A stretch of 33,745 nucleotides of DNA from Chromatiaceae bacterium (GTDB lineage: Bacteria > Pseudomonadota > Gammaproteobacteria > Chromatiales > Chromatiaceae): contig JALWWO010000024.1 in NCBI GenBank assembly GCA_027078745.1, positions 1 through 33,745 on the forward strand, given 5' to 3'. Positions 8,119 through 30,246 of this stretch are shown piece by piece. The number at the start of each line of letters is the position of its first letter. The stretch's first letter is position 1. The notes beneath the pieces are model-generated. The model was not told the DNA's origin. It saw only the letters and a program-made list of their open reading frames with translations, and did not search any database. Both the position numbers and the translations under genes were made by a program.

Positions 8119-8832
8119 ATGGGCTATTTGCGCGTTTATCTGGGCAATGAGCTGCAAGAACAATTTGATCTCGATCGCATGGAGCGATTGACCATCGGGC
8201 GGGCGAAGGATAATGACCTGGTCATTCCCGATGCCAAGGTTTCCGCACATCACGCGGTGATCTTCCGAGAAGGCAAGCATTATTTTGTACAGGATCTGGG
8301 CAGTACGAACGGGGTATTTCTCAACAATCAGCGGGTTCAGCGGGCCAAGCTGAAGTACTGGGATGAAGTGCAGATCTACGACCGGATTCTCAAGTTCATG
8401 GCGCTGTCCGCGCCTCAGGAAGGGGAAACCCCGAAGAGCCAGATCCAAGCAGAGGGTGTGCAGGCTTCGAAAACCCAAGCGATCGAACTCTCGGAGGCGG
8501 AACGCCAAGCCCTGCTCAAGCGGCAACAAAAGGTAGCTTTTCTGGTCTTCCAGCGGGGCACGAAGGAAAAGACCTTTTTCTTCGAAGATCGCATCGCGGT
8601 CACCATCGGTCGATCCAGGGATAACGATATCCGCACTAAGGGATGGTTTGCCCCAGAGGTTGCCGCCCGCATCGAGCGCACTCGGAAAGGCTTCTTTCTG
8701 GTGCCCAAGCCCCGAGGGAAGGTATTTCGCAACGGTAATCCGGTGGACAAACGCACGAAAATCCAAGACGGAGATGAAATCCAAGTGCGAAATCTCGCCT
8801 TTCGGTTCTGCTATCGGGTGCGGGCAGATTGA
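8119..8832 (+). CDS. Protein with two FHA domains
   Basis: A 237-residue soluble protein with two forkhead-associated folds. FHA-1 (residues about 5-95) has every canonical phosphothreonine-binding feature: TIGRAKDNDLVIPD, SAHHAVI and DLGSTNGVFLNN. FHA-2 (about 135-235) keeps TIGRSRDNDI and FRNGNPV, but the serine-xx-histidine segment is replaced by FAPEVAARI, so it probably no longer reads phosphothreonine. The linker is charged. The ATG follows AGGAGC. It lies 6 bases before the SpoIIM-like gene, suggesting it recruits a phosphorylated partner to that membrane complex. No Ser/Thr kinase gene is present in the window. Confidence 0.9.
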   Translation: MGYLRVYLGNELQEQFDLDRMERLTIGRAKDNDLVIPDAKVSAHHAVIFREGKHYFVQDLGSTNGVFLNNQRVQRAKLKYWDEVQIYDRILKFMALSAPQEGETPKSQIQAEGVQASKTQAIELSEAERQALLKRQQKVAFLVFQRGTKEKTFFFEDRIAVTIGRSRDNDIRTKGWFAPEVAARIERTRKGFFLVPKPRGKVFRNGNPVDKRTKIQDGDEIQVRNLAFRFCYRVRAD

Positions 8833-8838
8833 TTCTCC

Positions 8839-9804
8839 ATGATCCCCCAATCCCAATTTGAGCGGGAACAGGCGGCGCTGTGGCGCGCCTACAGGAATGC
8901 CCTGGATGTCCTAGAAAGGTCAGGTCGGGCAGGCAAGCTGCACAGTTTTCCCCGCCAATTCCAGCGCATCTGCACCCATTACGCCCTCGCCCGCAGCCGA
9001 GGCTATAGCCCGGGGCTGGTGGAGGCCCTGAGTGATCTAGTGCAGCGGGGGTATCGCCAGCTCTACCGCAAGCGGATCCCTTGGCTAGCGACTACCCTTG
9101 ATTTCTTGCGCGGGGAATTCCCCCGGACTCTGCGACGGCATCGCAACCTCTTTTATCTCTCCGCCGCCCTGTTGTTCGGCCCCCTGCTGGCCATGGGTTG
9201 GGCGACCTATGAGAATGGAACACTCGTCTACAGCCTGTTGGAAGCAGACCAGGTGGCGGAGCTGGAAAGCATGTACGATCCCGCCAACCGCGAGCCAGGA
9301 CGCCCTCGGGAAGCGGATACAGATTTCGCCCAATTTGGTTTTTACATCCTGAACAATGTGCGCATTGCTTTTCAACTGTTCGCCGGCGGGCTGTTTCTGG
9401 GGCTGGGCAGTCTGTTTTTCCTGAGCTTCAACGGGCTGGTGTTCGGGGCGGTGGCCGGATATTTGACCCAGCTGGGCTATGGGGAAAGTTTTTGGACCTT
9501 TGTGAGTAGCCATGCCCCGCTGGAACTCACGGCGATCCTCATCGCAGGCACAGCAGGTCTGTTGCTCGCCCGGGCGCTGCTGGCACCGGGTCGCCGCCGC
9601 AGGCTGCACGCCCTGCAGGCCAATGCGCGGGAAGGAGTGAAGCTGATCGTTGGTGCCATGGTCATGCTGATCTTAGCCGCCCTCATCGAGGCCTTTTGGT
9701 CGGGTTCCCCCCTGCCCAAGGCATTGAAACTGGGATTTGGTCTGCTGTGGTGGGTGCTGCTCCTGCTGTATTTCAGCCGCGCGGGCCGCCCGGATGAAGG
9801 TTGA
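8839..9804 (+). CDS. SpoIIM-like (DUF95) membrane protein
   Basis: A 321-residue inner-membrane protein of the stage II sporulation protein M family, which is widespread in non-sporulating bacteria. The N-terminal 100 residues are soluble and basic. Hydrophobic segments follow around residues 108-125, 170-205, 225-250 and 270-310. The central FGFYILNNVRIAFQLFAGG and the GLVFGAVAGYLTQLGYG segment are typical of the family. Function is not known for these proteins outside spores; they usually travel with RDD, DUF4129, MoxR ATPase and DUF58 genes. Here it is flanked by the FHA protein (6 bases before) and the DUF4129 gene, whose likely start overlaps its end by 11 bases. Confidence 0.88.
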   Translation: MIPQSQFEREQAALWRAYRNALDVLERSGRAGKLHSFPRQFQRICTHYALARSRGYSPGLVEALSDLVQRGYRQLYRKRIPWLATTLDFLRGEFPRTLRRHRNLFYLSAALLFGPLLAMGWATYENGTLVYSLLEADQVAELESMYDPANREPGRPREADTDFAQFGFYILNNVRIAFQLFAGGLFLGLGSLFFLSFNGLVFGAVAGYLTQLGYGESFWTFVSSHAPLELTAILIAGTAGLLLARALLAPGRRRRLHALQANAREGVKLIVGAMVMLILAALIEAFWSGSPLPKALKLGFGLLWWVLLLLYFSRAGRPDEG

Positions 9805-11233
9805 AGCCCTGCGCATCAATCTGCGCCCTCGCTCCCCCTGGGAAGCGGTGGATTTAGGATTCGCCTTGGCCCGCCACTGGTTCCTACCGCTCTGGAGCCT
9901 GTGGTTGCTCAGCGCCTTCCCCTTGGGCTTGTTGCTCTGGCTCTGGCAGGAGCCTGGCCCCTGGCTGTTCTCGATCTGGTGGGGCAAGCCCCTCTATGAA
10001 GCACCCCTGCTCTACTGGCTGAGCCGGAAGATCTTCGGCGAATCCCTGAATTTGAAAGCACTCTGGCGGGAGAAAAAGCGGATCTTTCCCCTCGCACTGC
10101 TTCCCAATCTGCTCTGGCGAAGGTTGGTCTTGCAACGGCCCCTGCAATTCGCGCTGATCCAGCTGGAAGGATTGCGCGGGAAAGCGCGACAACAGCGCCA
10201 GCAGGTCTTAGGCGGCAGTGGCGGCACCTTGGGTTGGCTGACGATCCTCTGCGCCCATCTGGAATTCATCCTCTTTCTTTCCGCCCTATTCGTCCTCTAC
10301 AGCCTGATTCCAGAGGAATTGGAATTCCGCTTCCAGGGTTTTTGGGCTGATCAGGGGGATTGGCTCACACCCTGGTTCTATTGGTCTGCCATGAGTCTAA
10401 TCGCCCCTTTCTATGTGAGCGCGGGTTTTACCCTTTATCTGCACCGTCGAGGAGAATTAGAAGCCTGGGATCTGGACCTGCGATTCCGCCAGGCCCAGCG
10501 GAAATCGCTGCGGGGACGCGCAGCCATCTATCTCGGCCTGTCTTTAATGCTGAGCAATCTTTTTCCCCAGCCTGCACAGGCCTCAGCGCTCACCCCAGAA
10601 CAGGCTAAACGAGAAATCCGAGCCGTGCTCGCTCAGGAAGCGTTCCATCGGGTCCGAGAGATCCAAACCTGGGTTTATCGGCCAGCTCAGGTGAGGAAAG
10701 AAGAATCCTGGGATTTGAGTTGGTTGCAGCAGCTGAGACAGCGCTTCGAACCCTGGGGTAAGGGGCTGGCCCTCTTCTTCAAATGGGTGCTGATCCTGGG
10801 GGCTGCCTGGTTCCTCGCTCGCTTGATCTCGCACAGACTGAGCTGGGAAGCCTCCTATCAAAAAAAGGAGGCTTGGAATCAGAGCACTTCTCGAGTGCAC
10901 TGCAGAAAGCGCCCTGCATTGCCTGCAGAGGTCCCGCAAGCGGTGCGCAACTACTTGACCGAGGGCAATTTGCGCGCTGCCCTAGGATTGCTCTACGCAG
11001 CGAGCCTGCAAGCAGCCCAAGAGCGCTATGGCCTGTCTCTCTCCCCTGGCACCACGGAAGGCGAATATCTCGCCGCCCTTGCCCAAAAAAACCTTTCTCC
11101 CGAAGTGCAGGCGCTGATGAAGCGTTTGGTCGTGAGCTGGCAGCAACTGGCTTATGGTCATTATCCGCCGGAGGCTGTGGAAATAGATCCTTTGTTCCAG
11201 GATTGGCAACGCTGGTGGGCGGAACAAGCCTAG
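9794..11233 (+). CDS. DUF4129 domain membrane protein
   Basis: A 479-residue membrane protein if started at ATG 9794, which overlaps the end of the SpoIIM-like gene. An earlier in-frame ATG at 9737 would add a cysteine-rich stretch that reads like the neighbouring frame. Hydrophobic spans are seen near residues 28-50, 155-180, 205-225 and 335-355. A signal-like span ending QPAQASALTPEQA near residue 265 suggests the following segment is periplasmic. The last 80 residues (AALGLLYAASLQAAQERYG...TEGEYLAALAQ) fit the DUF4129 domain, seen in transglutaminase-linked and MoxR-linked clusters. Function unknown. Its TAG stop shares the palindrome CTAG with the stop of the convergent phosphatase gene. 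Confidence 0.82.
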   Translation: MKVEALRINLRPRSPWEAVDLGFALARHWFLPLWSLWLLSAFPLGLLLWLWQEPGPWLFSIWWGKPLYEAPLLYWLSRKIFGESLNLKALWREKKRIFPLALLPNLLWRRLVLQRPLQFALIQLEGLRGKARQQRQQVLGGSGGTLGWLTILCAHLEFILFLSALFVLYSLIPEELEFRFQGFWADQGDWLTPWFYWSAMSLIAPFYVSAGFTLYLHRRGELEAWDLDLRFRQAQRKSLRGRAAIYLGLSLMLSNLFPQPAQASALTPEQAKREIRAVLAQEAFHRVREIQTWVYRPAQVRKEESWDLSWLQQLRQRFEPWGKGLALFFKWVLILGAAWFLARLISHRLSWEASYQKKEAWNQSTSRVHCRKRPALPAEVPQAVRNYLTEGNLRAALGLLYAASLQAAQERYGLSLSPGTTEGEYLAALAQKNLSPEVQALMKRLVVSWQQLAYGHYPPEAVEIDPLFQDWQRWWAEQA

Positions 11234-13491
11234 TGTCTGCGCAGAAACAGCATCGCTATATCATCGGATTGTCCCGCCTGGGAAAAAGACTGAACCGAGG
11301 CCAGGATACCCGCGATCAGGTCGGTAGCGTTCCGTTGGGCGAGGATTTTTAGTCGGGCTTCCAAGCGTTCGGTGCCATAGAGCCGTCGTCCGCCGTCCAT
11401 GGCCTCGGTGATGCCGTCTGTATAAAGAAATAGCCCTTCTCCAGGTCCCAGCGTGCAAGACTGGGTGCAGTAGCTCACCCCTTCGAACACCCCCAGAGCT
11501 GGCCCCGATGCCCGCGGCAGCGGGGACGGCTCCTCTCGGAGCCGATAGGGCGGATTGTGGCCCGCATTAGCATAGGTCAAGGTGCCGGTCTCCCGATGGA
11601 AGATGCCTAAAAATAGGGTGAGGAACATGCATTGGTCGTTTTCCTGGGAAAGGACAGCGTTGACGCGCTCCAGGATTTCATGAGGAGGCAAGCCCTGTTG
11701 CGCAGTGGCGCGCAGCAGCGTTTTCGCCATCGCCATGAAGAGGGCGGCAGGAACACCTTTATCGGATACATCTCCGATCAGGAGACAGAGTCGATCCGCA
11801 TCGATGGGAAAGCAATCGTATAGATCGCCCCCCACTTCCTTAGCGGGAAGCAATTGTGCGTAGAGGTCCACAGCAAAGCGTTGGGCAAAGGGGGCAAAAT
11901 TCTGTGGCAACATACTGCACTGGATCTTGCGCGCGGTTTCCAGAGATTCTTGGATGCGATGTTTTTCCAGCGTTTCCAAAGCCATGGAAAGGCTTTGGGT
12001 GAGGAGTCGCAGCAAATCTTCATCCAGGTCATCCAGCTTCCGGGTGCCGTTGAGGGCGAACAGGTTCTCGGGCAGGGCGGGATAGGGAAAGAATGCGATG
12101 CACTGCCGATTTCGGACAAAGGCGCCCCCTCGGACAATGGCTTGGGGCAGGGGAGCTTGGGTGGGAGCGGATGCCCGAAGCTGGGCTGCATCCCAACTTC
12201 CTGGATCGCCTCCATAATGGAAGCGTTCCACCTGGATGAGGGGCTGATCCAGAAAGATCACCCGGCGCAAGATATGAACCAATTGATCTCCCATCGAGGG
12301 CATCCCGTCCGATCTCCATATGAGACGGAGGGAATCTATGATATCTCGCAGTCCCCGTTGGGCGCGCTTGCGCCTGCGGATGTTCATCAACAGGATCAGA
12401 ATGAAGGCGAGCAAGCCCAAGATCAGGGTGATGACAGACCAAATCAGTTTTTTATAGCGGTAGTAAAAAGTTTCCGGCTCATTGATCAGCAGACTGCCTT
12501 CCGGCAACCGATCGATAGCGATGTCAAATCGTTTGAGCTGTTGATAATCGAATAGATAACGGTTCGGGCTGTGCATGACGATGGGAATATCTTCCGCGTT
12601 CTCTCCCTGAAGGATGCGGCGGGCTAGGGCAGCGGCCATCTGTCCCTGGTCATAGGCACTTTTCATAAAGCCCCCCAGGACACCTTTTCCAAGCATATAG
12701 TCCGATGGACCATAGAGAGGGGCCCGCGCCCGTCGGGCGATCTCAGGGATCGATTCCCAGGGGCTGAAATGTGCGCCCGTGCCATCCTGAAAGAAACTCA
12801 AGTAAAAAATTGCGTCTTCTTCGCCCAGCTCACTGACCACATGGAGCACAGATCCCAGGGGAAGATCGACCAGATAATGGAACTGAAAACGAGCTGTATA
12901 GGTCGCTGCTGCTCGTGCGAATGCCTTGCGGAGCATGCGCCCGGTGGTCAAATTATCGGAAATCACATAAATCCGTTTCACCTCCGGTTGCAAGCGAGCG
13001 ATCAGATCCAGGTTCTTGCGGAAATCTGCTGCCTCATTGACGCCGGTAACCTGCGCCATCCCCTGGATCATCGCTGGGGTGAAATCGTTGATACCACAGA
13101 ATACGATGGGCGTATGGGGAAAGAGCGGTTTCCCCTCGTCTCGCAGAAAATTCAGCGCGTCATTATCCGTGGCAATGATGACATCGAAATGAATGCCCTG
13201 ATATTTATTTGCATAGAGCGCCCGCAGCAAGGAGAAATGGTGCGCTGTATCGATAAACTTGGTATCCATAAATTCCATCTGCAGGATTACCCAGGGTTCT
13301 TGGGAAAAGGCATCGCGAATCGCTTGCACCTCCTGTCTTGTCCAATCATAGTTGAGATTGTATGAATTCAGCACGAGTAGATGATAATCTCGATCAGCCC
13401 GGCGCTCCGAGAGAATTTGGGCAGACGATGTCTTTAGAACGAGACAGAGTGCCCAAAATGTATGGATCGCTTGCCGAAAAAAGGCACGCAT
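11230..13491 (-). CDS. Membrane PP2C-type (SpoIIE/RsbU) phosphatase with ABC-binding-like sensor
   Basis: A 753-residue membrane phosphatase. Residues 1-25 are a signal sequence. Residues about 33-330 resemble the ABC_sub_bind periplasmic binding fold (LLVLNSYNLNYDWT, FDVIIATDNDALNFLR, PIVFCGIND). A transmembrane span lies near 347-370 (IWSVITLILGLLAFILILLM), then a basic stretch and a GAF-like linker of about 140 residues. The SpoIIE-type serine phosphatase occupies about 510-753 with all metal-site motifs: AKEVGGDLYDCF, IGDVSDKGVPAALFM, YANAGHNPPY, FLYTDGITEAMD and the final SDDIAMLFL. It should dephosphorylate an anti-sigma-factor antagonist or similar STAS protein in response to a periplasmic ligand. 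None is encoded nearby. It is the last gene of a three-gene operon; its ATG overlaps the previous stop (TGATG). Confidence 0.9.
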   Translation of the reverse strand: MRAFFRQAIHTFWALCLVLKTSSAQILSERRADRDYHLLVLNSYNLNYDWTRQEVQAIRDAFSQEPWVILQMEFMDTKFIDTAHHFSLLRALYANKYQGIHFDVIIATDNDALNFLRDEGKPLFPHTPIVFCGINDFTPAMIQGMAQVTGVNEAADFRKNLDLIARLQPEVKRIYVISDNLTTGRMLRKAFARAAATYTARFQFHYLVDLPLGSVLHVVSELGEEDAIFYLSFFQDGTGAHFSPWESIPEIARRARAPLYGPSDYMLGKGVLGGFMKSAYDQGQMAAALARRILQGENAEDIPIVMHSPNRYLFDYQQLKRFDIAIDRLPEGSLLINEPETFYYRYKKLIWSVITLILGLLAFILILLMNIRRRKRAQRGLRDIIDSLRLIWRSDGMPSMGDQLVHILRRVIFLDQPLIQVERFHYGGDPGSWDAAQLRASAPTQAPLPQAIVRGGAFVRNRQCIAFFPYPALPENLFALNGTRKLDDLDEDLLRLLTQSLSMALETLEKHRIQESLETARKIQCSMLPQNFAPFAQRFAVDLYAQLLPAKEVGGDLYDCFPIDADRLCLLIGDVSDKGVPAALFMAMAKTLLRATAQQGLPPHEILERVNAVLSQENDQCMFLTLFLGIFHRETGTLTYANAGHNPPYRLREEPSPLPRASGPALGVFEGVSYCTQSCTLGPGEGLFLYTDGITEAMDGGRRLYGTERLEARLKILAQRNATDLIAGILASVQSFSQAGQSDDIAMLFLRRH

Positions 13492-14057
13492 CAGTTATTG
13501 GGCAGAATTGACATAGGACGGGACAGGATATCCACATCTCTTCCGATGCTACCCACTGCGCCGCTCAGATCGATGAGTTTTCGATCCATTTCCATCAAGT
13601 GCTGTCCCATGGTGTGCATTCGATGTTGAATTCGGTCCATGGTTTCGGAAACCTTGACCAGATTGCCCCGCATGGTTGCCATATGTTCCCCCATGGCATC
13701 GACGGAACCATAGATCGCTGGCATGGGAGCGATGAATCCATCCATCTGTTGGACGGAATCACTGAGGGCATGCATGTTCTGGGTAACATCACTGAAATCT
13801 ACCCGCATGCTCTGCATGTCTTCTGCCATGGTTACCATATAGCGGGTGATGTGGTCCATGCGAGCAGTGAACGTAGCGACCAAAGCCAGCAAGGCAATCA
13901 TCATCACCATCATGCCGATCATGGCATAGCGGATGAGGTGATTGAGTTGATTGGAATTGTGCACCAGGTTGTGCCAATGAATGAAGAGCAAATCTTCATG
14001 AAGGTCCATGAGGTGGTTCGCCAGCCGTTCGGCCTCTTCGCGCTGTCTGGGAGTCAT
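13491..14057 (-). CDS. Methionine-rich single-span coiled-coil protein, copy B
   Basis: A 188-residue protein with a short cytoplasmic-looking N-terminus, one membrane span near residues 45-65 (MIGMMVMMIALLALVATF) and a long helical tail. I count 24 methionines in 188 residues. Directly after the span they fall at positions 67, 74, 77, 81 and 84, the 7 and 3/4 spacing of a coiled-coil core. It shares with the upstream gene the pattern MRxDFxxV(T/S)Q and SVxQM, so the two are paralogues. I do not recognise a named family. The layout (membrane anchor plus helical stalk, co-translated with a sensor phosphatase) suggests a structural or signalling partner of that phosphatase. Confidence 0.8.
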   Translation of the reverse strand: MTPRQREEAERLANHLMDLHEDLLFIHWHNLVHNSNQLNHLIRYAMIGMMVMMIALLALVATFTARMDHITRYMVTMAEDMQSMRVDFSDVTQNMHALSDSVQQMDGFIAPMPAIYGSVDAMGEHMATMRGNLVKVSETMDRIQHRMHTMGQHLMEMDRKLIDLSGAVGSIGRDVDILSRPMSILPNN

Positions 14058-14060
14058 GGC

Positions 14061-14657
14061 TTACCATCCGATGAAAGGCATCATGCGCAGGGGACTGCTC
14101 ATCGTATTGACCTCCTTTTGCATGCGAAATACGTGCAGATTCACCACCCCAAAAGCCTGGTTCATCTGAGCCATATTGATTTCCATGGCAGCGAGAATCT
14201 GATCGATGGTGACCACATGTGGGGTGATGCCCTGGTTCATGGCAACTGCCATCACATCGAAATCTTCCCGCATTCGGAAGAGGCGCCTTTCCATCGGGGG
14301 AATGACGGCGATATGCTGGCGCATCTGGGCCACAGAACCTTCGATGGTCCGTATGAGTTGGGAGACTTCGTCGAAATCTCGGCGCATGGTGCTTACCTGT
14401 ACTTGCATCTGTTCCATGCGCTCGGTGATCGTGCCCATGGCCCCTACCAGCGTCCAGATTAGATAAAACACGGGTAGGCTCAGTACCATCACTATGAATA
14501 GGGAAGTGCGCGCGACCCAGAAGGTTCGCCGAATATCCTGCACGCGGCGATAGTCGATCTCTTCTTCTCGGGCGACAGAAGCGCGCAGGCGGTCTTGGAT
14601 GATGCGAAAGATCAGCAGGGTGGGATCTTCTTCGGAGGCTGGGGTTTGCACGGTCAT
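14061..14657 (-). CDS. Methionine-rich single-span coiled-coil protein, copy A
   Basis: A 198-residue paralogue of the next gene in the operon, 3 bases upstream of it. It has an acidic/basic N-terminal helix of about 45 residues, one membrane span near 50-73 (LFIVMVLSLPVFYLIWTL) and a helical tail with 18 methionines in total. Core methionines follow the same phase after the span (74, 81, 84, 91). MRRDFDEVSQ aligns with MRVDFSDVTQ of copy B. The ATG has an AAGGAA site. It is the first gene of the phosphatase operon. Family unknown; superficially it resembles the stalk of chemoreceptors, but it lacks HAMP and signalling tips. Confidence 0.8.
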   Translation of the reverse strand: MTVQTPASEEDPTLLIFRIIQDRLRASVAREEEIDYRRVQDIRRTFWVARTSLFIVMVLSLPVFYLIWTLVGAMGTITERMEQMQVQVSTMRRDFDEVSQLIRTIEGSVAQMRQHIAVIPPMERRLFRMREDFDVMAVAMNQGITPHVVTIDQILAAMEINMAQMNQAFGVVNLHVFRMQKEVNTMSSPLRMMPFIGW

Positions 14658-14790: not shown

Positions 14791-15405
14791 TCAAGCGAAT
14801 ACTATCCAAGTGGTCGCAATGTATTTGATACCGGATTCCACGCGAACGGCGCGATGCTCGTGCGTCCAGAACGGCGGGAACAGTACCAGCATGCCCTGCT
14901 GGGGTCGGATGCGCACGTGCTGATAGCGGAATTGGGTCTCTCCACCAGGGCCGGGCAGGTCATTCAGATACCAAAGAGCCACGAGCTGGCGTTGGCTGAA
15001 TTCATGGCTACCGCCGTCAATGTGCCAATGGTAGAACTCCCCGGGTAAATAGCGTTGGACCTGATAGCCCAGATCCTTGAAGGGACCCTTGAAATAGGGG
15101 AATGCTTCCCGAAACTCCCCCAAAGCCTGGCGCAAGGATTGGAAGAAGACCCGATCTACATCCCGCCATTCCGGTCGGTTGCTGACCACGAGATCTGTAG
15201 TGCGCTTGATGCGGGAATCCCGGGTCCGGGTCTGACCGATGCGGCCTGCATATTGATGTTCGGGATGCGCTTCAAAACGGGCGATGACTTCCTCGCAGAA
15301 CAGGGGAGGCAGCGCATGCGGGCGGGTGAAGATAAAGCTACCCGGTTTGATCTCCCGCAAGGTGGAAAGCGGGAGACGCTCGGATTCTTCAACAGGGGGC
15401 AGCAT
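14791..15405 (-). CDS. 2OG-Fe(II) oxygenase, prolyl-4-hydroxylase-like
   Basis: A 204-residue non-haem iron dioxygenase of the PKHD/prolyl-4-hydroxylase type, which uses 2-oxoglutarate and oxygen to hydroxylate a protein or small substrate. The iron triad is visible as H-x-D in YHWHIDGGSHEF (near residue 127) and the distal histidine in FWTHEHRAVRV. The 2OG-binding basic residue is the lysine of ESGIKYIATTW. The double-stranded beta-helix core runs from about 100 to 200. ATG 15405 follows AGAAGG at good distance. It lies 16 bases after the DUF3127 gene, so the two are likely co-transcribed. The substrate is unknown. Confidence 0.9.
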   Translation of the reverse strand: MLPPVEESERLPLSTLREIKPGSFIFTRPHALPPLFCEEVIARFEAHPEHQYAGRIGQTRTRDSRIKRTTDLVVSNRPEWRDVDRVFFQSLRQALGEFREAFPYFKGPFKDLGYQVQRYLPGEFYHWHIDGGSHEFSQRQLVALWYLNDLPGPGGETQFRYQHVRIRPQQGMLVLFPPFWTHEHRAVRVESGIKYIATTWIVFA

Positions 15406-16318: not shown

Positions 16319-18331
16319 TCAGCTCGATGCGCTGAGCGTCTGTGTGCGCGCTGCACTTGAAGCAGTTTTGGGAGATTTCCGCTCCTTCAGGGGATTATAG
16401 CGAAGGGCGTTGTTGATATTGCGCAAGGCGGTGAGCTGCTTTGCAGTCTCCACATACTGTTTGTTTGCTTCATCGATGCGCTCTTGGAGATTGTCCTTCG
16501 ATCGGTTGATGCGTTCCAGATTCTCCACCCGCAATGCGATATTACGCTTGTTCTCTTCAATCTGATCGATGATGGGCTGCAAGGAAAGTCGCATGGATCG
16601 TTCGAAATCTGCTCGGAAGCTATCGAACAAGGCGTTGAACCGTTCCACAAGATCCCTGTAATGGTCGATCACCACTGCTTTCGGCAGGAGAAACACCCGA
16701 GGCCGCTTGTAAAACAGGCGGGCCGCTCTCTGAATCTGCTCGGCTTCTGCCACGAAAGCAGCAGTGGAAAATACCTCCGGCGGCGAGAGGTTAAACCCGA
16801 GTTCCCGATCAAAACGGCGATAGGTTCGCAACAGCAGTCTGCGCACGCGCTCGCTCTCATGGATGAGTTTCTGCACCGCGCGTCCCAGCTCGTCGAACAG
16901 CTGTTTCATATGTCCTAACAGGGCAGACGTACTCCAAGCGTGTTCTAGTTCCTGTTGATTTTCCTCTAAGAGCTGATCGATCAGTTCCTTATTCAGGCTC
17001 TGGCGCATGATCTCTGTCTCTGCCAACAGCTTCTCCCGACTAGCCTGAAACAGGGAAATACTCTTCAAATACAGATCCTTATCTGCTTGAATCCGGTGAA
17101 GCAGATGTTCCAATACATCCGCGCTCTTTTTGCGCATCTCCTCCAACTCGGCGAGCTGAGATTCGATGTTCTGAATGCGCTGGGTGATGCGTTGCCGGCT
17201 GCGATTGACCAACTGTCCGATTTCCACGTCCAATACGTTGGAAAGCTGCTGGTATCGCTCTTCTAGGATCTGCCTGGAGATCCGATGCTCCAGCTCGCTG
17301 AGCTGACTCTTGGCCAACAGTAAGTCGTCCTCGTTCACCTTGGCTTGGAAGCCCATTCGAGCGGAAACCGCCGCAATTCGGTCCTCCTGGACTACCAAAG
17401 TGTTGGCGATGTACGTGATCTGGCGCTGAACCTCCGGTTCCTCTGCTTTGGGGTTCTGGGGCTGATCCCAGAGCAGATCGCTCTTGTTGAGCACGATCAG
17501 CGTTTTATCCCAACTCCTTTCCAACCGATGGGAGAGATAACGCCAGATCTCTCGGTCGTTAGCGCTCACCGCTGTGTCCGCTGCGAGCAGAAAGAGCAGG
17601 GCTTGGGATTTGGGCAACAGATCGGCGAGCAGCTCCGGTTCACTGGCCAACCCCTGAAGATCGGGCACGCTGATCAAACTGAGCCCTTGTTTGAACAGGG
17701 GATGGGGAAAACTCATGATGGCATAGCGCCATTTCATGACGCTCACTTTGCCCAGATTGGACCCCTCTCGATTCGCTTCCTCTAGAAGCCCGAGTCGCTT
17801 TGCTTCCCCAAGGGAAATGCTCTTCTGCTTGCGGATTTCTGAAAGCGTGGAGACCAGCTGTGCGAGGTCTTGCGTCTGTAGCGGATAATGCACCCAATAT
17901 TTCGGGTCCTTCTTCAAGGCTGCGATGGAAAGATTCTGGGTGCGGCTCTCAATGGGTAGCAGTCGGAGATAGGATTCATTGCGCCGCTCGTCCCAGAGGA
18001 TTTCTAGAGGACAGCGAGCAGAATGTTTCCCACTTTCCTGACTCGCAGTGAGCAAGGGTTCCTGGTAATCGGCAAAAAAAAGAGCGTCGATGAGGACCGA
18101 TTTTCCCCGACCAGGTTCCCCTAAAACTGCGATGCGCAGGCGGTGTTCCTGCAGAGCGCTGAGGGTACGGCGAATATGTGCCCGATTTTCCTCATTCAAT
18201 TCCCCCTGAATGCCGAGCCAACCTTCCAATTCTCGGACAGAACGAGCCACCCGTGATTTCCATTGGCGGTAATCCGAGAGATAATCTTGGATAATGTGGG
18301 TCTGCATGTGGCGAGGTACCGAGGACACCAT
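16319..18331 (-). CDS. Dynamin-like large GTPase, soluble type
   Basis: A protein of about 670 residues with an N-terminal GTPase of the dynamin/bacterial dynamin-like superfamily. G1 is GEPGRGKS near residue 71, G3 is DLQG within SVPDLQGLAS, and G4 is NKSD in LIVLNKSDLLW. Long charged helices from about 370 to 480 (QRIQNIESQLAELEEMRKK) and from 560 onward form the stalk-like part. I see no convincing transmembrane span, so any membrane contact must be peripheral. The start is uncertain: ATG 18331 is chosen, TTG 18337 and ATG 18307 are alternatives. It lies about 100 bases after yggU and before DUF4426. Its cellular job is unknown; relatives remodel membranes. Confidence 0.82.
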   Translation of the reverse strand: MVSSVPRHMQTHIIQDYLSDYRQWKSRVARSVRELEGWLGIQGELNEENRAHIRRTLSALQEHRLRIAVLGEPGRGKSVLIDALFFADYQEPLLTASQESGKHSARCPLEILWDERRNESYLRLLPIESRTQNLSIAALKKDPKYWVHYPLQTQDLAQLVSTLSEIRKQKSISLGEAKRLGLLEEANREGSNLGKVSVMKWRYAIMSFPHPLFKQGLSLISVPDLQGLASEPELLADLLPKSQALLFLLAADTAVSANDREIWRYLSHRLERSWDKTLIVLNKSDLLWDQPQNPKAEEPEVQRQITYIANTLVVQEDRIAAVSARMGFQAKVNEDDLLLAKSQLSELEHRISRQILEERYQQLSNVLDVEIGQLVNRSRQRITQRIQNIESQLAELEEMRKKSADVLEHLLHRIQADKDLYLKSISLFQASREKLLAETEIMRQSLNKELIDQLLEENQQELEHAWSTSALLGHMKQLFDELGRAVQKLIHESERVRRLLLRTYRRFDRELGFNLSPPEVFSTAAFVAEAEQIQRAARLFYKRPRVFLLPKAVVIDHYRDLVERFNALFDSFRADFERSMRLSLQPIIDQIEENKRNIALRVENLERINRSKDNLQERIDEANKQYVETAKQLTALRNINNALRYNPLKERKSPKTASSAARTQTLSASS

Positions 18332-18437
18332 TCTCAAGGCAAGTATACCTGAGCTATCCTACTTCCACAGCGCATTCCTTGGGGTTTTTATCGCCTGAAT
18401 CGAAGTACGACAGCCTTCCGCAGATCGGATCGGGCTG

Positions 18438-22161: not shown

Positions 22162-23223
22162 TCACCCTTTGGCGGGTCTGCCGATGCCCCGTGCCCGCGC
22201 GAAATCCAACATGCGCTGGATGGGCACCACTGCTTTTTCGCGGATCTCCGGCGGGATTTGAACCTCTTGATCTTGTCGGATCAAGACCTGTTCCAAACTC
22301 TGCAAGGCGTTCATGCCCATCCAGGGACAGTTGGCACAGCTCTCACAGGTGGCCCCCTCGCCGGCGGTAGGGGCTGCGATGAGGGTTTTGTCCGGTGCGA
22401 GCTGGCGCATCTTCCAGAAAATGCCCTCATCCGTGGCTACGATGAACTTCCGCTGGGGCAGCTCGGCCACTGCTTTGATGAGCTGGGTGGTGGAACCCAC
22501 CACATCTGCCTGATCGATGACTTCCTTCGGGGATTCGGGATGTACCAGGACCGCCGCATCGGGATGGAGCCGCCGGAGCCGTTCGAGGGCAAAGCCCTTG
22601 AATTCTTCATGGACCACGCAGGCCCCAGGCCATAGCAACATCTCCGCGCCGGTCATGCGTTCGATGTAATGGCCGAGATGTTTGTCCGGCGCCCAGAGAA
22701 TCTTTTCTCCCTGGTCCCGCAGGTATTCCACGATGGGCAGGGCGATGCTGGAAGTCACCACCCAATCAGCGCGTGCCTTGACCGCTGCGGAAGTATTGGC
22801 ATAGACCACCACCTTGTGATCCGGATATTGGTCGCAGAACTGAGAGAAGAGCCCCGCAGGACAGCTTTCATCCAGGGAACAGGTAGCATCCAGGTTCGGC
22901 ATGAGCACCCGCTTTTCCGGATTGAGGATCTTTGCGGTCTCCCCCATGAAGCGCACTCCGCAGACCACTAACAGACTCGCATCGCTCTCGGTGCCGAAGC
23001 GGGCCATTTCCAGAGAATCCGCCACAATGCCGCCGGTCTCCTCTGCCAAGGCCTGGAGTTCCCCATCGGTGTAATAATGGGCCACCAAGACCGCATCCAA
23101 GGCTTGGAGATGCGCCTGGATGCGGGCTTTCAGGGCTTCTTTCTCTCCCTCCGAGAGACTGGGCCATTGGGGATGGGGCGGGGGTTTGATGGTGGGAACA
23201 GGGGGAGCGGAAAGGATGGTCAT
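22162..23223 (-). CDS. nadA: Quinolinate synthase NadA
   Basis: Condenses iminoaspartate with dihydroxyacetone phosphate to quinolinate in de novo NAD synthesis, using an oxygen-sensitive [4Fe-4S] cluster. It has 353 residues. Cluster cysteines are visible in [15 protein letters not shown] (near residue 108), [14 protein letters not shown] (near 133) and the C-terminal [15 protein letters not shown] (near 293). VAHYYTD, the usual substrate segment near the N-terminus, is present. Its ATG overlaps the end of the second dynamin-like gene by four bases, an unusual coupling of NAD synthesis to a membrane GTPase. Confidence 0.97.
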
Positions 23224-24710
23224 CGGATTACTTCCTGATCAGCGGAACTGCGGAGGGGTTCTTGGTTCTGGACCTCGCCGGAAGGGTTGGTGAAGCGATC
23301 GTTCAGAACCTGCACATAATGGTTGGCCGCCTCCCGTACCTGGGCCAGTCGGCGTCGAGCGCTGCGATGCCAGCCCAGGGGATTGCTGCGGAAGAGGCTG
23401 TGCCAAGGGTGGGTATTCTGCAAGAAGGCGTTCAGGAGATCTCCCCGTACGGATAATCGCTCGGCTTCCTTGCGCAGGCGGGGCAGCAGGGTGCGGGCGG
23501 CGAGTTTCCGCAGACCGAAATGCAGACCCATCCAGGCTAGGGCGAGCGCTATCCAGAGCCCCATGGGGGCAAAGGGAATTTGCGCGAGGGATTCGAACCA
23601 GGGTGCTTGATAATACCCATCCCGCCAATGCCCGGCCCGCAGGCTCCAAACTAGAAAGGCGATGCCTCCCCCTCCCAAAAGCAAGGTTTCCATCCAGAGG
23701 GTGCGCCGCCGCCATCGGCGGATCGCCCGCTGGAGGAAGGGCAGAATCTGTTCCTGAATCTCCCGCGCGTGTTTCTCCAAAGCGCCGATGATGCGATAGG
23801 CTCGTTCTACTTCCACTTGATGCATGCGCCCGTGGATCTCTGAAAGATCTTGATCTCGCCGGCGCTCAAATCGAAGTCGTTTGGCTTCCTCTTCGATGGG
23901 AACAGCGACTTCCGGATTGTAGATGGTGTAAAACCGTCCGGCCGTCAAGCCTTCTTCTGCTAAGGCTCGCTGCCAGGCAGCGACTACATCCTCGGGATTA
24001 TCCTCTCGGGCTGTGGTGTCCATCTGGTTGAGGATATAGAGGAACTTTCCTGCATCCGGCCGATGGATTGTATCCGCCACCAGATGCTTAAGGGTGTCAC
24101 GCATGGCACCGGGCTCCGGATGCCGTGCGTCGAAAAAGACCAAAACTAGGTCGGACAAGTCGATGATATGATCCGTGATGCGCAAGGTGGCGGTGCGCTG
24201 GGCATCGGCATCGAACCCCGGCGAATCGATGAGGATCTTGCCCCGCAACTTTTCACTGGAACAGGTTTTGAGCTGGAGATAGGCATCGATGCGCTCCCCT
24301 TCTCCCTGGGCCACCTGCTCAATCTCTCGGGAGATTCGGTAAAAAGGGAAACGGGGGTCAGAATCCAAAGCAATGCCCGGGAGCACATGTCCGGACTGCT
24401 CTCGGCTGTAGCAGATGACGGTGAACTTATCGTCCACCGCCTGATTGCCGCTGCGCTGGATCTTTTCCCCTAGGAAATGATTGATGAAGGTGGATTTACC
24501 TGCGGAAAAAGTACCCAGAATGGAAATCAGGGGCCACCAGGAAATCTGCGTGGCATAAGAAGCCTCTCGGCTGAGCAAGCCCATGCCCTGAGCGACCTGA
24601 TCCAAGGTTCGGAAACTCTGTACTGCCTGGAGCAGGACAGGATTCTCCTGCGCGAGATGGGTCTCAAGCTGCTTCAGCCGTTGTTCGATCGGATGAGTCG
24701 CTTGGCGCAA
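23220..24710 (-). CDS. Dynamin-like GTPase with membrane segments
   Basis: A large GTPase of about 496 residues. G1 is GTFSAGKST near residue 66, G3 is DSPGF in [13 protein letters not shown], and G4 is NQMD in YILNQMDTT. Two hydrophobic segments follow near residues 338-357 ([16 protein letters not shown]) and 378-398 ([16 protein letters not shown]), so it is probably membrane-anchored, unlike the other dynamin-like gene in the window. Start choice: TTG 24710 has GGAG about 7 bases upstream. The frame runs on to TTG 24821, but the extra 37 residues are not family-like. It heads the long minus-strand operon and overlaps nadA. Function unknown; membrane remodelling or membrane stress response is inferred from the superfamily. 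Confidence 0.85.
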
Positions 24711-24840
24711 AACAGGAACTCCGAAAAGGGAAAAGTGGCGGCAAATGGTATACCGAATTGCTGATGGGGCGGTAGCCCAACAGCCCTGGTTTGGGCATCC
24801 ATTAGAAGGCTGATTTGTCAATGATATTTCTGGGAATCAG

Positions 24841-26181: not shown

Positions 26182-29100
26182 ATGAGTCATGACGAGATCC
26201 AGAAGGGAAATCATCCATCCGGCGGGCTAGAGGAATGCAAACAGCCCCCAGCGGTACCAGAAGAATCCTCTTCTCGAGGTATCTCGGGAGCTTCCGAGCA
26301 CACGGATGAACATCTAGGTATCGCAGGCCGCACGGCGCGGTTTTTCATCCGTTCGCCCCTCTCCCCTCTGTTCTATATTTCCATGCTTCTGATGGGGCTA
26401 TTGGGGTTATTGCTCACCCCTCGCCAGGAAGATCCCCAGATTTCTGTGCCCATGATCGACATCATGGTGCAGTACCCGGGTGCTTCCGCACAGCAGGTTT
26501 CCAACCTCGCTATTCAGCCCTTGGAACGCATCATGAGCGAGATTCCTGGGGTCAAGCACGTGTACTCCGCTGCCCAGCGGAACATGGGCATCGTCACCAT
26601 CGAATTCGAAGTAGGGGAGCAGATGGGGCCTTCCCTGGTGAAGGTGAACGACAAGCTCGCCTCCAACATGGACAAAATTCCGCCCGGGGTCATGCCGCCT
26701 TTGGTGAAATCCAAGGGCATCGACGACGTACCCATCGTCACCCTGACCCTTTGGTCCAAGGATTTGGATGAAGACGGCTTGCCAGATGTGGATGATGGCC
26801 AACTGCGTCTCCTGGCGCAGGATGTGTTGCAGGCCCTCAAAGCAGTCAAGGACACGGGCAATGCCTTTATCGTGGGGGGGCGTCGGGAACAAGTAACTGT
26901 AGATGTGTATCCGGAACGTCTCGCCGGCTACGGCATCAGCCTGGATCAGGTAGCCCAGACGATCAAGACCGCCAATGCGGAGGCGCCGGCCGGTGGGTTG
27001 GAAACCAGCGGTAGTCATTTTTCCGTCATCACGGGTTCCTTTTTGCGCAGTGCGGACGAGATCAGCCGTTTGGTGGTGGGTACCCATCGGAACGTGCCCG
27101 TCTATGTGCACGATGTGGCTCGGGTCAGTCAGGGGCCAGAAGATGCCAAGCAGCTGGTCGCTTATTACACCGGCCAATCCGCGCCGGAAGGCCTGAAGGC
27201 AGACGGGGTGCCTGCGGTCACCATCGCTATCGCCAAAAAGGAGTTGACCAACGGGGTCACAGTCGCCAACGCCATCATTGAGCGAGTGGAAGAACTCAAG
27301 GGCGAACGGATTCCTAACAATGTGGAAGTGAGCGTCACTCGTAACTACGGGGAAACCGCAGATGACAAGGTCAGCGAGTTGATCTTCAAACTCTTCGTGG
27401 CCACGGGCTGGGTATTCCTGCTCGTGTGGCTCGCATTCCGAGCCCTGCGACCGGCCATTGTGGTCATGCTCGTCATCCCTGTGGTTCTACTCATGACCAT
27501 CTTCGTGGCTTGGATTACGGATTACACTATCGACCGCGTGAGTCTGTTCGCGCTGATTTTCTCCATCGGCATCCTGGTGGACGATGCCATCGTCGTGGTG
27601 GAAAACATCTATCGGCGCTGGCTGGAAGAAGGGCGTACCGACGAGGAAACCGCCGTGGATGCGGTGGCAGAAGTGGGGAATCCGACGATCCTGGCCACCT
27701 TCACTGTTATCGCCGCCCTACTGCCCATGGGCTTCGTGAGCGGCATGATGGGGCCCTACATGGAACCCATCCCCGCCCTGGGTTCCGTGGCCATGCTCAT
27801 CTCTCTCTTCGCAGCCTTTGTCTTCACCCCCTATCTGGCCATTTCCAAATGGCTACGGCCCACCATGCACTACTTGGAGACGGCGGAGAAGCGAGAGATC
27901 GAGGGATCGGAAAGGCTGGAAAAACTCTTCCGGCGCATCCTCACTCCCCTCATTGAGAGCCGCACCAAGCGCTTGCTCTTCCGACTGGTGCTCTGGGGCA
28001 CCTTCCTGTTCACCTGTGCCTTCTTCTACCTCAAATGGGTGCCGGTGAAGATGTTGCCCCTGGATAACAAGCCGGAATACTCGGTGGTGATCGACATGCC
28101 CGAGGGTACTGCCTTGCCCGTGACCGCAAACCTCGCCCATCGGATGGCGGAGAAATTGCGCGCCGAGCAGCCGGAGATCACCGCCATTCAGCTCTACGCG
28201 GGCACTGCACGCCCCTTCGATTTCAACGGCATGGTGCGCCATTATTACCTCCGCCGCGAGCCCTGGCAGGGGGAATTGCAGGTGCAGTTATTGCACAAGA
28301 GCAAGCGGGAGCGAAGCAGCCATGAGTTAGCCGTCCAGGCCCGTCAACTGCTGAAAAAGATGATCGAAGGCACCGGCGCTAAGATCACAGTGGTGGAGAT
28401 GCCTCCGGGACCGCCGGTGTTGCAATCTGTGGTGGCGGAGATCCACGGGCCCTCCCCTGAGGTCCGGCGGCAGTTCGCGCGGGACATGACCAAGATCTTC
28501 GAAGAAGCCCCCAACGCCCGCGATGTGGATAACTATCTGCGGGATGCCTTCGACTACTGGCGCTTCGAGGTGGATACGGAAAAGGCGGTGCGGCGTGGGA
28601 TCTCTGTGGATGCCATCAATCGAAACCTGGCCATGGCCCTTGGGGGAGCGGAACTGGGCGATGTGAAGCAGCTTGCCGGTCATGAACCGGTGAAGATCGT
28701 CCTCCAAGTTCCCCTATCCGAGCGCTCGGAAATCGAACGGCTGGGCGATCTACCCATTCAATCGCCGGCGGGTTATACGATTCCTTTGCGGGAGCTGGGC
28801 GTTTTCCAAAAGATTCCGGAGGAAGACATTATCTATCGCAAGGATCTGCGGGCGGTGGAATATGTGGTCGCAGACGTGGGGGGCGATCTGGCCGCACCCA
28901 TCTATGTCATGCTGGAAGTACACGATATCTTGGAAAAGACCGGCTATCGCGCTCCCGATGGGGTGGTGCCTCAAGCCTATTGGACCCAGGCCCCACCGAC
29001 GGATCGACAGTCCGCTTGGGAATGGTCCGGTGAGTGGACAGTTACCTATGAGACCTTCCGAGATATGGGCGGTGCCTTCATGGTCGCTCTGGTGTTGATC

Positions 29101-30246
29101 TATATTCTAGTGGTCTGGGAGTTCGGGAATTTCCGCATTCCCCTGGTCATCATGGCCCCCATCCCTTTAACCCTGTTGGGCATCATCCCCGCCCATTTCA
29201 TCATGTTTGAACTGGACTTGGGGGGGGAATTCACCGCTACTTCCATGATCGGTTGGATCGCGCTGGCAGGCATCATCGTGCGCAACTCGATCCTGCTGGT
29301 GGATTTCTCTATCCATGAGGTGCAAAAGGGGGTTTCCGTAGCGGAGTCGGTGATCCGCGCCTGTAAGACGCGTACTCGGCCCATCGTCATCACCGCCTTG
29401 GCCTTGGTGGCAGGCTCCAGCGTCATCTTCACAGATCCCATCTTCCAAGGCATGGCGATCTCTCTGGCCTCCGGCGTGCTGGTGTCTACCGTGCTGACCC
29501 TGGTGGTCATTCCTCTGGGCTGTGTGGCTGCGAGCAAAGACATGTGCGAAGTCGCCGCTGCTACAGCACCTCCAGGTGTCACTGTGCCCTGCGTGGCCGA
29601 GTTTGAGAGCAGCGAAGCAGAGGCGGAACGGGCAGCGCAGGAAAAGAAGGGGAAGCAGGCGGCACCCGCTCGCAAGGGCATCCTCGGGCGGATCTGGGGT
29701 TGGTTCATCGAGGCTTTGGCCCTGGTCTTCTACCTGATCCGGGGCATTTTCCTGCTGCTCTTCAGCCTGCTGAAGGGACTGTTCCCTTCGAAAAAAAGGA
29801 ATCCACCACCTGATGGCGGAACATCCGGTGGTTCCGGTGGAACCCCCCCCTCGACCGGCAGCGCTGGCGGAGCCGCGCCGCCCGCAAGCAGTGGATCTGC
29901 AACAGGTGCTTCCGATGCTAATCAGGGAGAATCCGGGCGCAGTGCCGGGACGACGCATGGATCTGGGGATTCTTCTACAGAGACTTCCCGATCGCAGCCT
30001 GCGGCCTCCCTTCAGCAGGCGGAACACGCTTCAACCCCTGCTGCGACCCAGGGGCCGACCGCGTCTGCATCCCCCCCAGCCGGAGAGACGGGAGAAAGCG
30101 AGAAACAAGCTGCGGAAAAGCGCACACCGAGCGGCAAAAAGCCCGCGGCGAAAAAGGCCACCGCAGCCAAGATGGCGCCGGTACAGAAAAAAGCGCCTCG
30201 CCGAGGCATTCGCCTCAAAGCGGATGAAGGGACGGAGTTCGAATAG
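26182..30246 (+). CDS. RND efflux permease with long C-terminal extension
   Basis: Proton-driven inner-membrane export pump of the AcrB/HAE type, 1354 residues versus roughly 1000-1100 normally. Residues 1-50 are a hydrophilic N-terminal extension. TM1 follows (PLFYISMLLMGLLGLLL), then the porter domain (IDIMVQYPGASAQQVSNLAI). The TM4 relay GILVDDAIVVVENIYRRW lies near 463 with both aspartates. The second half ends its normal fold at VLTLVVIPLGCVAASKDM near 1112. Then come a charged linker, an extra hydrophobic stretch (near 1170-1200, WGWFIEALALVFYLIRGIFL), a Gly/Ser/Thr/Pro-rich region and a Lys/Ala tail (KKPAAKKATAAK). The substrate cannot be told. The ATG has a poor ribosome site, so coupling to the adaptor mRNA may matter. 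Confidence 0.92.
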   Translation: MSHDEIQKGNHPSGGLEECKQPPAVPEESSSRGISGASEHTDEHLGIAGRTARFFIRSPLSPLFYISMLLMGLLGLLLTPRQEDPQISVPMIDIMVQYPGASAQQVSNLAIQPLERIMSEIPGVKHVYSAAQRNMGIVTIEFEVGEQMGPSLVKVNDKLASNMDKIPPGVMPPLVKSKGIDDVPIVTLTLWSKDLDEDGLPDVDDGQLRLLAQDVLQALKAVKDTGNAFIVGGRREQVTVDVYPERLAGYGISLDQVAQTIKTANAEAPAGGLETSGSHFSVITGSFLRSADEISRLVVGTHRNVPVYVHDVARVSQGPEDAKQLVAYYTGQSAPEGLKADGVPAVTIAIAKKELTNGVTVANAIIERVEELKGERIPNNVEVSVTRNYGETADDKVSELIFKLFVATGWVFLLVWLAFRALRPAIVVMLVIPVVLLMTIFVAWITDYTIDRVSLFALIFSIGILVDDAIVVVENIYRRWLEEGRTDEETAVDAVAEVGNPTILATFTVIAALLPMGFVSGMMGPYMEPIPALGSVAMLISLFAAFVFTPYLAISKWLRPTMHYLETAEKREIEGSERLEKLFRRILTPLIESRTKRLLFRLVLWGTFLFTCAFFYLKWVPVKMLPLDNKPEYSVVIDMPEGTALPVTANLAHRMAEKLRAEQPEITAIQLYAGTARPFDFNGMVRHYYLRREPWQGELQVQLLHKSKRERSSHELAVQARQLLKKMIEGTGAKITVVEMPPGPPVLQSVVAEIHGPSPEVRRQFARDMTKIFEEAPNARDVDNYLRDAFDYWRFEVDTEKAVRRGISVDAINRNLAMALGGAELGDVKQLAGHEPVKIVLQVPLSERSEIERLGDLPIQSPAGYTIPLRELGVFQKIPEEDIIYRKDLRAVEYVVADVGGDLAAPIYVMLEVHDILEKTGYRAPDGVVPQAYWTQAPPTDRQSAWEWSGEWTVTYETFRDMGGAFMVALVLIYILVVWEFGNFRIPLVIMAPIPLTLLGIIPAHFIMFELDLGGEFTATSMIGWIALAGIIVRNSILLVDFSIHEVQKGVSVAESVIRACKTRTRPIVITALALVAGSSVIFTDPIFQGMAISLASGVLVSTVLTLVVIPLGCVAASKDMCEVAAATAPPGVTVPCVAEFESSEAEAERAAQEKKGKQAAPARKGILGRIWGWFIEALALVFYLIRGIFLLLFSLLKGLFPSKKRNPPPDGGTSGGSGGTPPSTGSAGGAAPPASSGSATGASDANQGESGRSAGTTHGSGDSSTETSRSQPAASLQQAEHASTPAATQGPTASASPPAGETGESEKQAAEKRTPSGKKPAAKKATAAKMAPVQKKAPRRGIRLKADEGTEFE

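Follow-up and report, generated by a model that had tools for sequence, protein, structure and literature searches.

Three adjacent minus-strand genes in a 33,745-nucleotide stretch of a Chromatiaceae genome (the window, here always that whole stretch) encode two Met-rich coiled-coil membrane proteins, CC1 and CC2, and a membrane phosphatase of the SpoIIE/RsbU type. Phosphatases of this class dephosphorylate STAS proteins that a kinase has phosphorylated, and the locus raises the question of what such an enzyme has to do with a coiled-coil pair. A preliminary description took the trio for a unit of its own, in which the pair might serve as the stalk or the direct target of the phosphatase sensor. 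The reading favoured here, to which we give somewhat better than even chances, is that the trio is left over from a rearranged partner-switching locus of the Chromatiaceae, the purple sulfur bacteria and their relatives, a locus in which CC1 and CC2 stand on the output side.

Gene layout in the window

The three open reading frames, their 3-base spacing between CC1 and CC2 and the TGATG overlap were recovered as first described; all three genes lie on the minus strand:

14061-14657, minus strand: CC1, single-span membrane protein with a Met-rich heptad tail, 198 aa (open reading frame; orthologues 57% and 46% identical)
13491-14057, minus strand: CC2, single-span Met-rich coiled-coil paralogue, 188 aa (open reading frame; orthologues 66% and 52% identical)
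13489-13493, minus strand: TGATG, stop of CC2 and start of the phosphatase gene overlapping by one base (sequence)
11230-13491, minus strand: membrane sensor phosphatase, 753 aa (open reading frame; eight orthologues 43-54% identical)

Orthologues of CC1 and CC2 that are 46-66% identical and occur in two other genera show that the frames are genuine genes. Promoter and terminator scans gave signals no more frequent than in shuffles. The surroundings, named by eye, comprise FHA, SpoIIM-like and DUF4129-like genes (8119-11233, plus strand), which run towards the phosphatase gene and share 4 bases with its end; a same-strand 2OG-Fe(II)-oxygenase-like gene (14791-15405, minus) 133 bases upstream of CC1; two genes of dynamin-like or GTPase-like appearance (16319-18337 and 23220-24821, both minus); and an RND-type pump gene (26182-30246, plus), whose 1354-aa product ends in a long low-complexity tail rich in Ser, Pro, Ala and Gly.

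Domains of the phosphatase

Both domains attributed to the phosphatase from the outset score above their Pfam cut-offs: PF07228 (SpoIIE) at residues 565-752 (E 2e-52, 178.4 bits against a cut-off of 25) and PF04392 (ABC_sub_bind) at residues 94-326 (E 6.6e-13). An AlphaFold2 model built from a nine-row alignment has a mean pLDDT of 73.3 and a pTM of 0.38, which makes it interpretable per domain only. The following parts are delineated:

12484-13386, minus strand: periplasmic-binding-protein-like sensor domain, residues about 36-336 (Pfam PF04392, model and Foldseek)
12379-12453, minus strand: transmembrane helix, residues about 347-371 (model helix 347-393; membrane part placed by eye)
12031-12294, minus strand: cytoplasmic alpha/beta domain, GAF-like by eye, residues about 400-487 (model; sub-threshold Pfam match to DUF3369 only)
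11911-12030, minus strand: alpha-helical linker, residues 488-527 (model; ten-residue blocks with pLDDT 54-84)
11236-11871, minus strand: SpoIIE/RsbU-type PP2C catalytic domain (Pfam, model and Foldseek)

Foldseek searches with parts of the model returned the phosphatases RssB, SiaA, SpoIIE and Rv1364c as well as binding proteins including 3lft and 6hnj, and the sensor domain matches 3lft both in sequence (E 5.3e-4 with a nine-row profile) and in fold. Four aspartates, D556, D574, D692 and D744, which we take to be the metal-binding residues of the PP2C class, are invariant across the nine orthologues. With PF07228 above its cut-off, these residues kept and a helical linker modelled ahead of the PP2C domain, the enzyme is assigned by sequence and model to the SpoIIE/RsbU class. 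The other two PF07228 matches in the window genome reach 29 and 21 bits, against 182. Elsewhere in that genome a PppA-like phosphatase adjoins a TagF-like gene, as judged by eye (G000:C10; L002 1450-2903), a gene pair known from type VI secretion regulation.

The coiled-coil proteins

Three features of the coiled-coil genes are delineated:

14439-14501, minus strand: hydrophobic (transmembrane) segment of CC1, residues 53-73 (hydropathy; six K/R before it against three after)
13863-13925, minus strand: hydrophobic (transmembrane) segment of CC2, residues 45-65 (hydropathy)
14061-14102, minus strand: C-terminal motif of CC1, residues 186-198 plus stop (mean pairwise identity 0.81 in nine orthologues; the best conserved part)

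The proposal that CC1 and CC2 are paralogous single-span proteins is borne out by 23% identity (E 1.3e-5 in a sequence search) and by one strong hydrophobic segment apiece. An hhalign comparison of three-row profiles gives a probability of 98.8 over 148 columns, a kind of score that coiled coils inflate; as far as such similarity can tell, the two are diverged paralogues. Met content is 9.1% in CC1 and 12.8% in CC2. The tails, of 125 and 123 residues, compare with 107-131 among 25 family members, in which Met and hydrophobic residues of the tail recur every 7, 14 and 21 residues and no protein has more than one Cys. Across nine orthologues, mean pairwise identity is 0.66-0.75 in the span, 0.80-0.81 in the C-terminal 13-16 residues and 0.50-0.61 in the rest of the tails. 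A structure model of CC1 places helices at residues 12-116, 119-141 and 148-186, with low confidence in the tail. A topology with the N-terminus inside and the tail in the periplasm is predicted because Lys and Arg are biased towards the stretch before the span: 19 of the 25 members have more of them in the 25 residues before it than in the 25 after, the CC2 of the window being an exception (one before, three after).

No curated family takes in CC1 or CC2 above its cut-off; the best matches by E-value, both of them for CC2, stand at 26.0 bits against 34.6 in Pfam and 19.3 against 200 in NCBIfam. Kinship with ZorA, DotF or DUF948 was ruled out by scores far below the cut-offs. As to Zorya ZorA, in which a tail follows a MotA/ExbB-like membrane part, the coiled-coil proteins have a single strong hydrophobic segment, and the ZorA2 match (E 0.008) covers residues 63-148 of CC2, that is, the tail only. 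A PDB search with the coiled-coil profile returned 60 sequences up to E 0.01, generic coiled coils, several of them trimers, and was judged uninformative.

Co-occurrence of the phosphatase and the CC2 subtype

Whether the pair belongs with the phosphatase at all was addressed in 210 genomes of the window's family, which are related to one another, include three that supplied the queries, and were searched with both profiles. A full-length phosphatase orthologue is present in 9 of the 210 (at least 905 bits, the next match 321), as is the CC2 subtype (at least 209.9 bits, next 67), and seven genomes have both, against 0.39 expected (Fisher p 3.9e-10). Counted by genus, five have both, with seven for each among 61 (p 7e-5). 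Without the three query genomes the figures are four in common and six each among 207 (p 3e-6), and without the genera of the query genomes two in common and four each among 58 (p 0.02). Within a single genus, g16, represented by eight genomes among the matches listed, three carry both and five neither (p 0.018). These counts support a link between the coiled-coil pair and the phosphatase beyond chance.

Exceptions occur on both sides. The phosphatase is found without CC1 and CC2 in two of its nine genomes, G464 (76% complete) and G567, and the CC2 subtype without the window-type phosphatase in two of nine, G414 and G440, the latter having a different phosphatase. A phosphatase found mostly without the coiled-coil genes, named at the start as evidence against an association, is only in part what this family presents, and the wider coiled-coil family is for its part mostly without the phosphatase. 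The check for covariation, also suggested at the start, gave a weak correlation of the phosphatase and CC1/CC2 distance matrices (Mantel 0.58-0.60, p 0.06-0.07, with no species-tree control).

Locus organisation in relatives

In G483, G501 and G462 the phosphatase gene is followed by a DASS permease, a second binding protein (SBP2, ABC_sub_bind-like), a sulfotransferase, an RsbW-like kinase, a divergent STAS gene, CC1 and CC2; G004 has the same order except that a gene judged FadL-like by eye separates STAS from CC1. Pfam matches in G004 exceed the cut-off for PF00939, PF13469, PF13581 and PF01740, and PF04392 falls just under it (25.5 bits against 25.9). Kinase and STAS are linked to the phosphatase in all four of these relatives and unlinked in the window genome. 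The trio had been put forward as a three-gene unit, a notion that the comparison does not support: phosphatase and coiled-coil genes are directly adjacent only in the window genome, one of the seven with both, and the four relatives have eight or nine genes. With contiguity so limited, the trio as a fixed gene set is ruled out; what the preliminary description had picked up is a genuine phosphatase-coiled-coil association, caught in its least typical arrangement.

Two neighbourhoods recur. A STAS gene lies beside CC1, or one gene away, in seven of the nine CC2-subtype genomes, and a DASS permease directly follows the phosphatase in eight of the nine phosphatase genomes (with one ORF between them in G567), the exception being the window genome, where SBP2 also found no match except the sensor of the phosphatase itself. 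Elsewhere the loci are dispersed over contigs or incomplete. In G018 a short contig holds STAS with CC1/CC2, the phosphatase is on a third contig, and pieces of the kinase are found at two contig ends, that of the STAS/CC contig and that of another contig. In G497 one contig carries the phosphatase with the beginning of the DASS gene, a second has the end of DASS, SBP2, the sulfotransferase, the kinase, then a 584-aa ORF and STAS, and CC1/CC2 are on a third; both contigs bearing switch genes end within the DASS gene. G414 has STAS and CC1/CC2, with no full-length phosphatase orthologue. The relatives also carry other SpoIIE-type phosphatases, and their STAS protein may therefore serve more than one of them.

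The wider coiled-coil family

Sequence comparison places CC1 and CC2 in an unnamed, widespread tandem family, of which they would be a specialised copy. Of 194 genomes in the window's family, 179 have members by a 25-row profile (E<=1e-6), mostly without the window-type phosphatase, which is present in 9 of 210; at class level the profile finds members in 75 of 369 (E<=1e-12). G008 carries coiled-coil pairs and has no match at all to the phosphatase. The 43 mapped loci comprise 35 tandem pairs, each with both genes on one strand, and eight single copies. The window genome has further copies, a pair on contig C18 and a single gene on C2; the former, a second tandem Met-rich pair (G000:C18:361253-362327; L204 7251-8373), lies beside an ion-permease-like gene (by eye).

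No gene cluster neighbours the family in more than seven of the 43 mapped loci. The largest, of seven loci with ATP-binding proteins, seems to have been joined by single linkage through a widespread domain, and a cluster of Cache-like proteins looks in part like an artefact of the same kind, its L218 member being a GAF/PAS cyclase one ORF away. Other clusters, of three or four loci each, include GGDEF-EAL proteins. These proteins (Pfam) lie near single-copy genes in G000:C2 (L245 1908-4500) and L067 and near pairs in L213 and L214, and may represent another connection of the family to signalling.

Such ubiquity, together with the lack of a common neighbour and the separation of CC1/CC2 from the switch genes in G497, is what might be expected if CC1 and CC2 were just another copy of a common family that acts independently in the envelope, and had nothing but DNA or regulation in common with the switch genes. 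The CC2 subtype, however, is limited to few genomes and tracks the switch genes, even within genus g16, and we consider this explanation unlikely while granting it an appreciable chance.

Sensor side or output side

If the pair does belong to the switch, its side remains to be assigned, and G440 is the informative genome. There CC1, CC2, STAS and the kinase are accompanied, on the kinase strand, by genes for an Asp/Glu racemase, an SDF symporter, an SBP_bac_3 protein and a phosphatase of the SpoIIE type. This phosphatase lacks an ABC_sub_bind match and has a sensor that is Cache-like, with a dCache_1 score (E 6.8e-7, 29.5 bits) below the cut-off of 45. Comparison with the other loci suggests that input genes, that is, an ABC_sub_bind or Cache-like sensor and a DASS or SDF transporter, are exchanged around a constant core. 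Because in this one genome kinase, STAS, CC1 and CC2 are kept while sensor and transporter differ, and from gene order, we infer that CC1 and CC2 belong to the output side; the idea that they form a sensor stalk fits poorly with such a locus.

The competing view makes CC1 and CC2 sensory accessories, periplasmic rods that contact the binding-protein domain of the phosphatase and set its activity, with the trio as a sensor complex. The TGATG overlap in the window, suggestive of translational coupling, fits it, as do three of the 43 loci in which the gene for a Cache-like membrane protein is immediately next to a generic pair or overlaps it (L066 3266-6531, L069 6101-8339 and L221 3684-7203; dCache_1 scores of 33.0-39.8 bits fall short of the cut-off of 45, and L069 passes MCP-like_PDC_1). 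Against it, the sensor class changes in G440 while CC1/CC2 do not, CC1 lies beside STAS in seven of nine genomes (one gene off in G004), and the window genome alone has the phosphatase and coiled-coil genes adjacent; we regard a sensor complex as distinctly unlikely. The L066 Cache-like protein looks by eye fused to a nucleotide cyclase, a domain absent from its Pfam matches at E<=1e-6.

Kinase and STAS of the window genome

Partner switching involves a kinase and a STAS protein besides the phosphatase. The earlier statement that no STAS protein is encoded here holds for the window's contig, C23, on which a whole-genome STAS search placed none; it does not extend to the genome, which has an RsbV-like gene on C19, nor to the relatives, with their STAS near CC1. 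On C19 an RsbW-like kinase (144 aa) adjoins this free RsbV-like STAS protein (109 aa), the pair lying between tuf-like and mnmE-like genes (by eye). The kinase scores 69.6 bits, and the other seven HATPase_c_2 matches fall in frames of at least 374 aa at no more than 31.9 bits. Of the other two STAS matches, one is a frame of 613 aa whose size suggests a SulP-like protein; the other is mlaB-like and, by eye, flanked by mla-like and murA-like genes. STAS S52/S53 is invariant in eight sequences. Two partner-switching components are thus present in the window genome, a kinase of the HATPase_c_2 type and a STAS protein that keeps the conserved Ser residues. As there is a single RsbW-like kinase, a single free RsbV-like STAS protein and a single high-scoring PF07228 match, one phosphatase, one kinase and one STAS protein are available to each other. 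In the window genome STAS is 32-35% and the kinase 28-32% identical to the proteins encoded in the loci, and the highest-scoring match to this STAS protein across 204 genomes shares 50% identity with it; by these values the C19 pair appears too diverged to be called orthologous to the locus versions.

It is very improbable that the window phosphatase has left partner switching and that CC1 or CC2 is itself its phosphoprotein target, since, for all that just the phosphatase and coiled-coil genes remain together and SBP2 is unmatched there, the genome keeps an adjacent kinase-STAS pair, the catalytic Asp residues are intact and enzymes of the SpoIIE class act on STAS proteins, as SiaA does on SiaC (PMC7647112).

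Proposed mechanism

On the favoured reading, that of a rearranged partner-switching remnant, the membrane phosphatase would read a periplasmic signal through its substrate-binding-protein-like domain and pass it along the membrane helix and the helical linker to the PP2C domain, probably in a dimer. That domain would remove from the STAS Ser the phosphate put there by the RsbW-like kinase. Both steps have precedents: linker-mediated dimerisation has been proposed to couple exchangeable sensors to such phosphatases (PMC12143880), and SiaA/SiaB/SiaC is a worked case of a PP2C-type phosphatase in a partner switch (PMC7647112). CC1 and CC2 would be anchored in the inner membrane by their span, with a short cytoplasmic N-terminus, a heptad rod of ~125 residues that is probably periplasmic, and a conserved C-terminal motif, and the state of STAS and kinase would set their membrane assembly, directly or through expression.

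It is tempting to generalise further, in a form that we hold tentatively and with considerable doubt: the output of the partner switch may be a pair of inner-membrane coiled-coil rods reaching into or across the periplasm, not a sigma factor or cyclase, while sensor phosphatases and transporters would be interchangeable on the input side. CC1/CC2 would then be the branch under signalling control within an unnamed tandem family that is widespread in Gammaproteobacteria. If true, this would widen the list of outputs under STAS/kinase partner switches. The tie between an uncharacterised coiled-coil family and a known kind of signalling switch offers a testable entry to coiled-coil function.

Comparison with known systems

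In the open-licence literature searched, no described system of such composition was found, in agreement with the preliminary description. The modelled PP2C part of the window phosphatase resembles the SiaA PP2C structure 6k4e; unlike SiaA, the enzyme has an ABC_sub_bind sensor, and it reaches 36.5 bits with the NCBIfam SiaA model NF038263, against a cut-off of 700. More broadly, the SiaABC(D) system of Pseudomonas aeruginosa likewise joins a PP2C-like phosphatase, a kinase and a phosphorylated target in a partner switch (PMC7647112), whereas the loci of the relatives add a permease, a second binding protein, a sulfotransferase and CC1/CC2, and no diguanylate cyclase like that of SiaABCD stood out when the locus maps were inspected by eye.

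The RsbU/RsbW/RsbV system of Bacillus offers a second parallel, its PPM phosphatase having a helical linker (PMC12143880). Shared with RsbW/RsbV are the HATPase_c_2 kinase and the conserved Ser of the STAS protein. The sensor here differs in being membrane-bound and periplasmic, two membrane coiled-coil proteins are added, and inspection of the loci by eye revealed no sigma factor. Binding proteins of PF04392 (3lft, an L-Trp complex by its title) are like the sensor domain in sequence and fold; in the window this domain is joined to a membrane phosphatase. Generic coiled-coil models (DUF1664, DUF948, IcmG/DotF and ZorA) have the heptad coiled coil in common with CC1 and CC2, in part after a membrane span; their scores lie below curated cut-offs or, for ZorA2, at E 0.008, and on this evidence they are not relatives of the pair. 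Set against these systems, the phosphatase is of a known class and stands in an unusual locus, together with an undescribed membrane coiled-coil pair.
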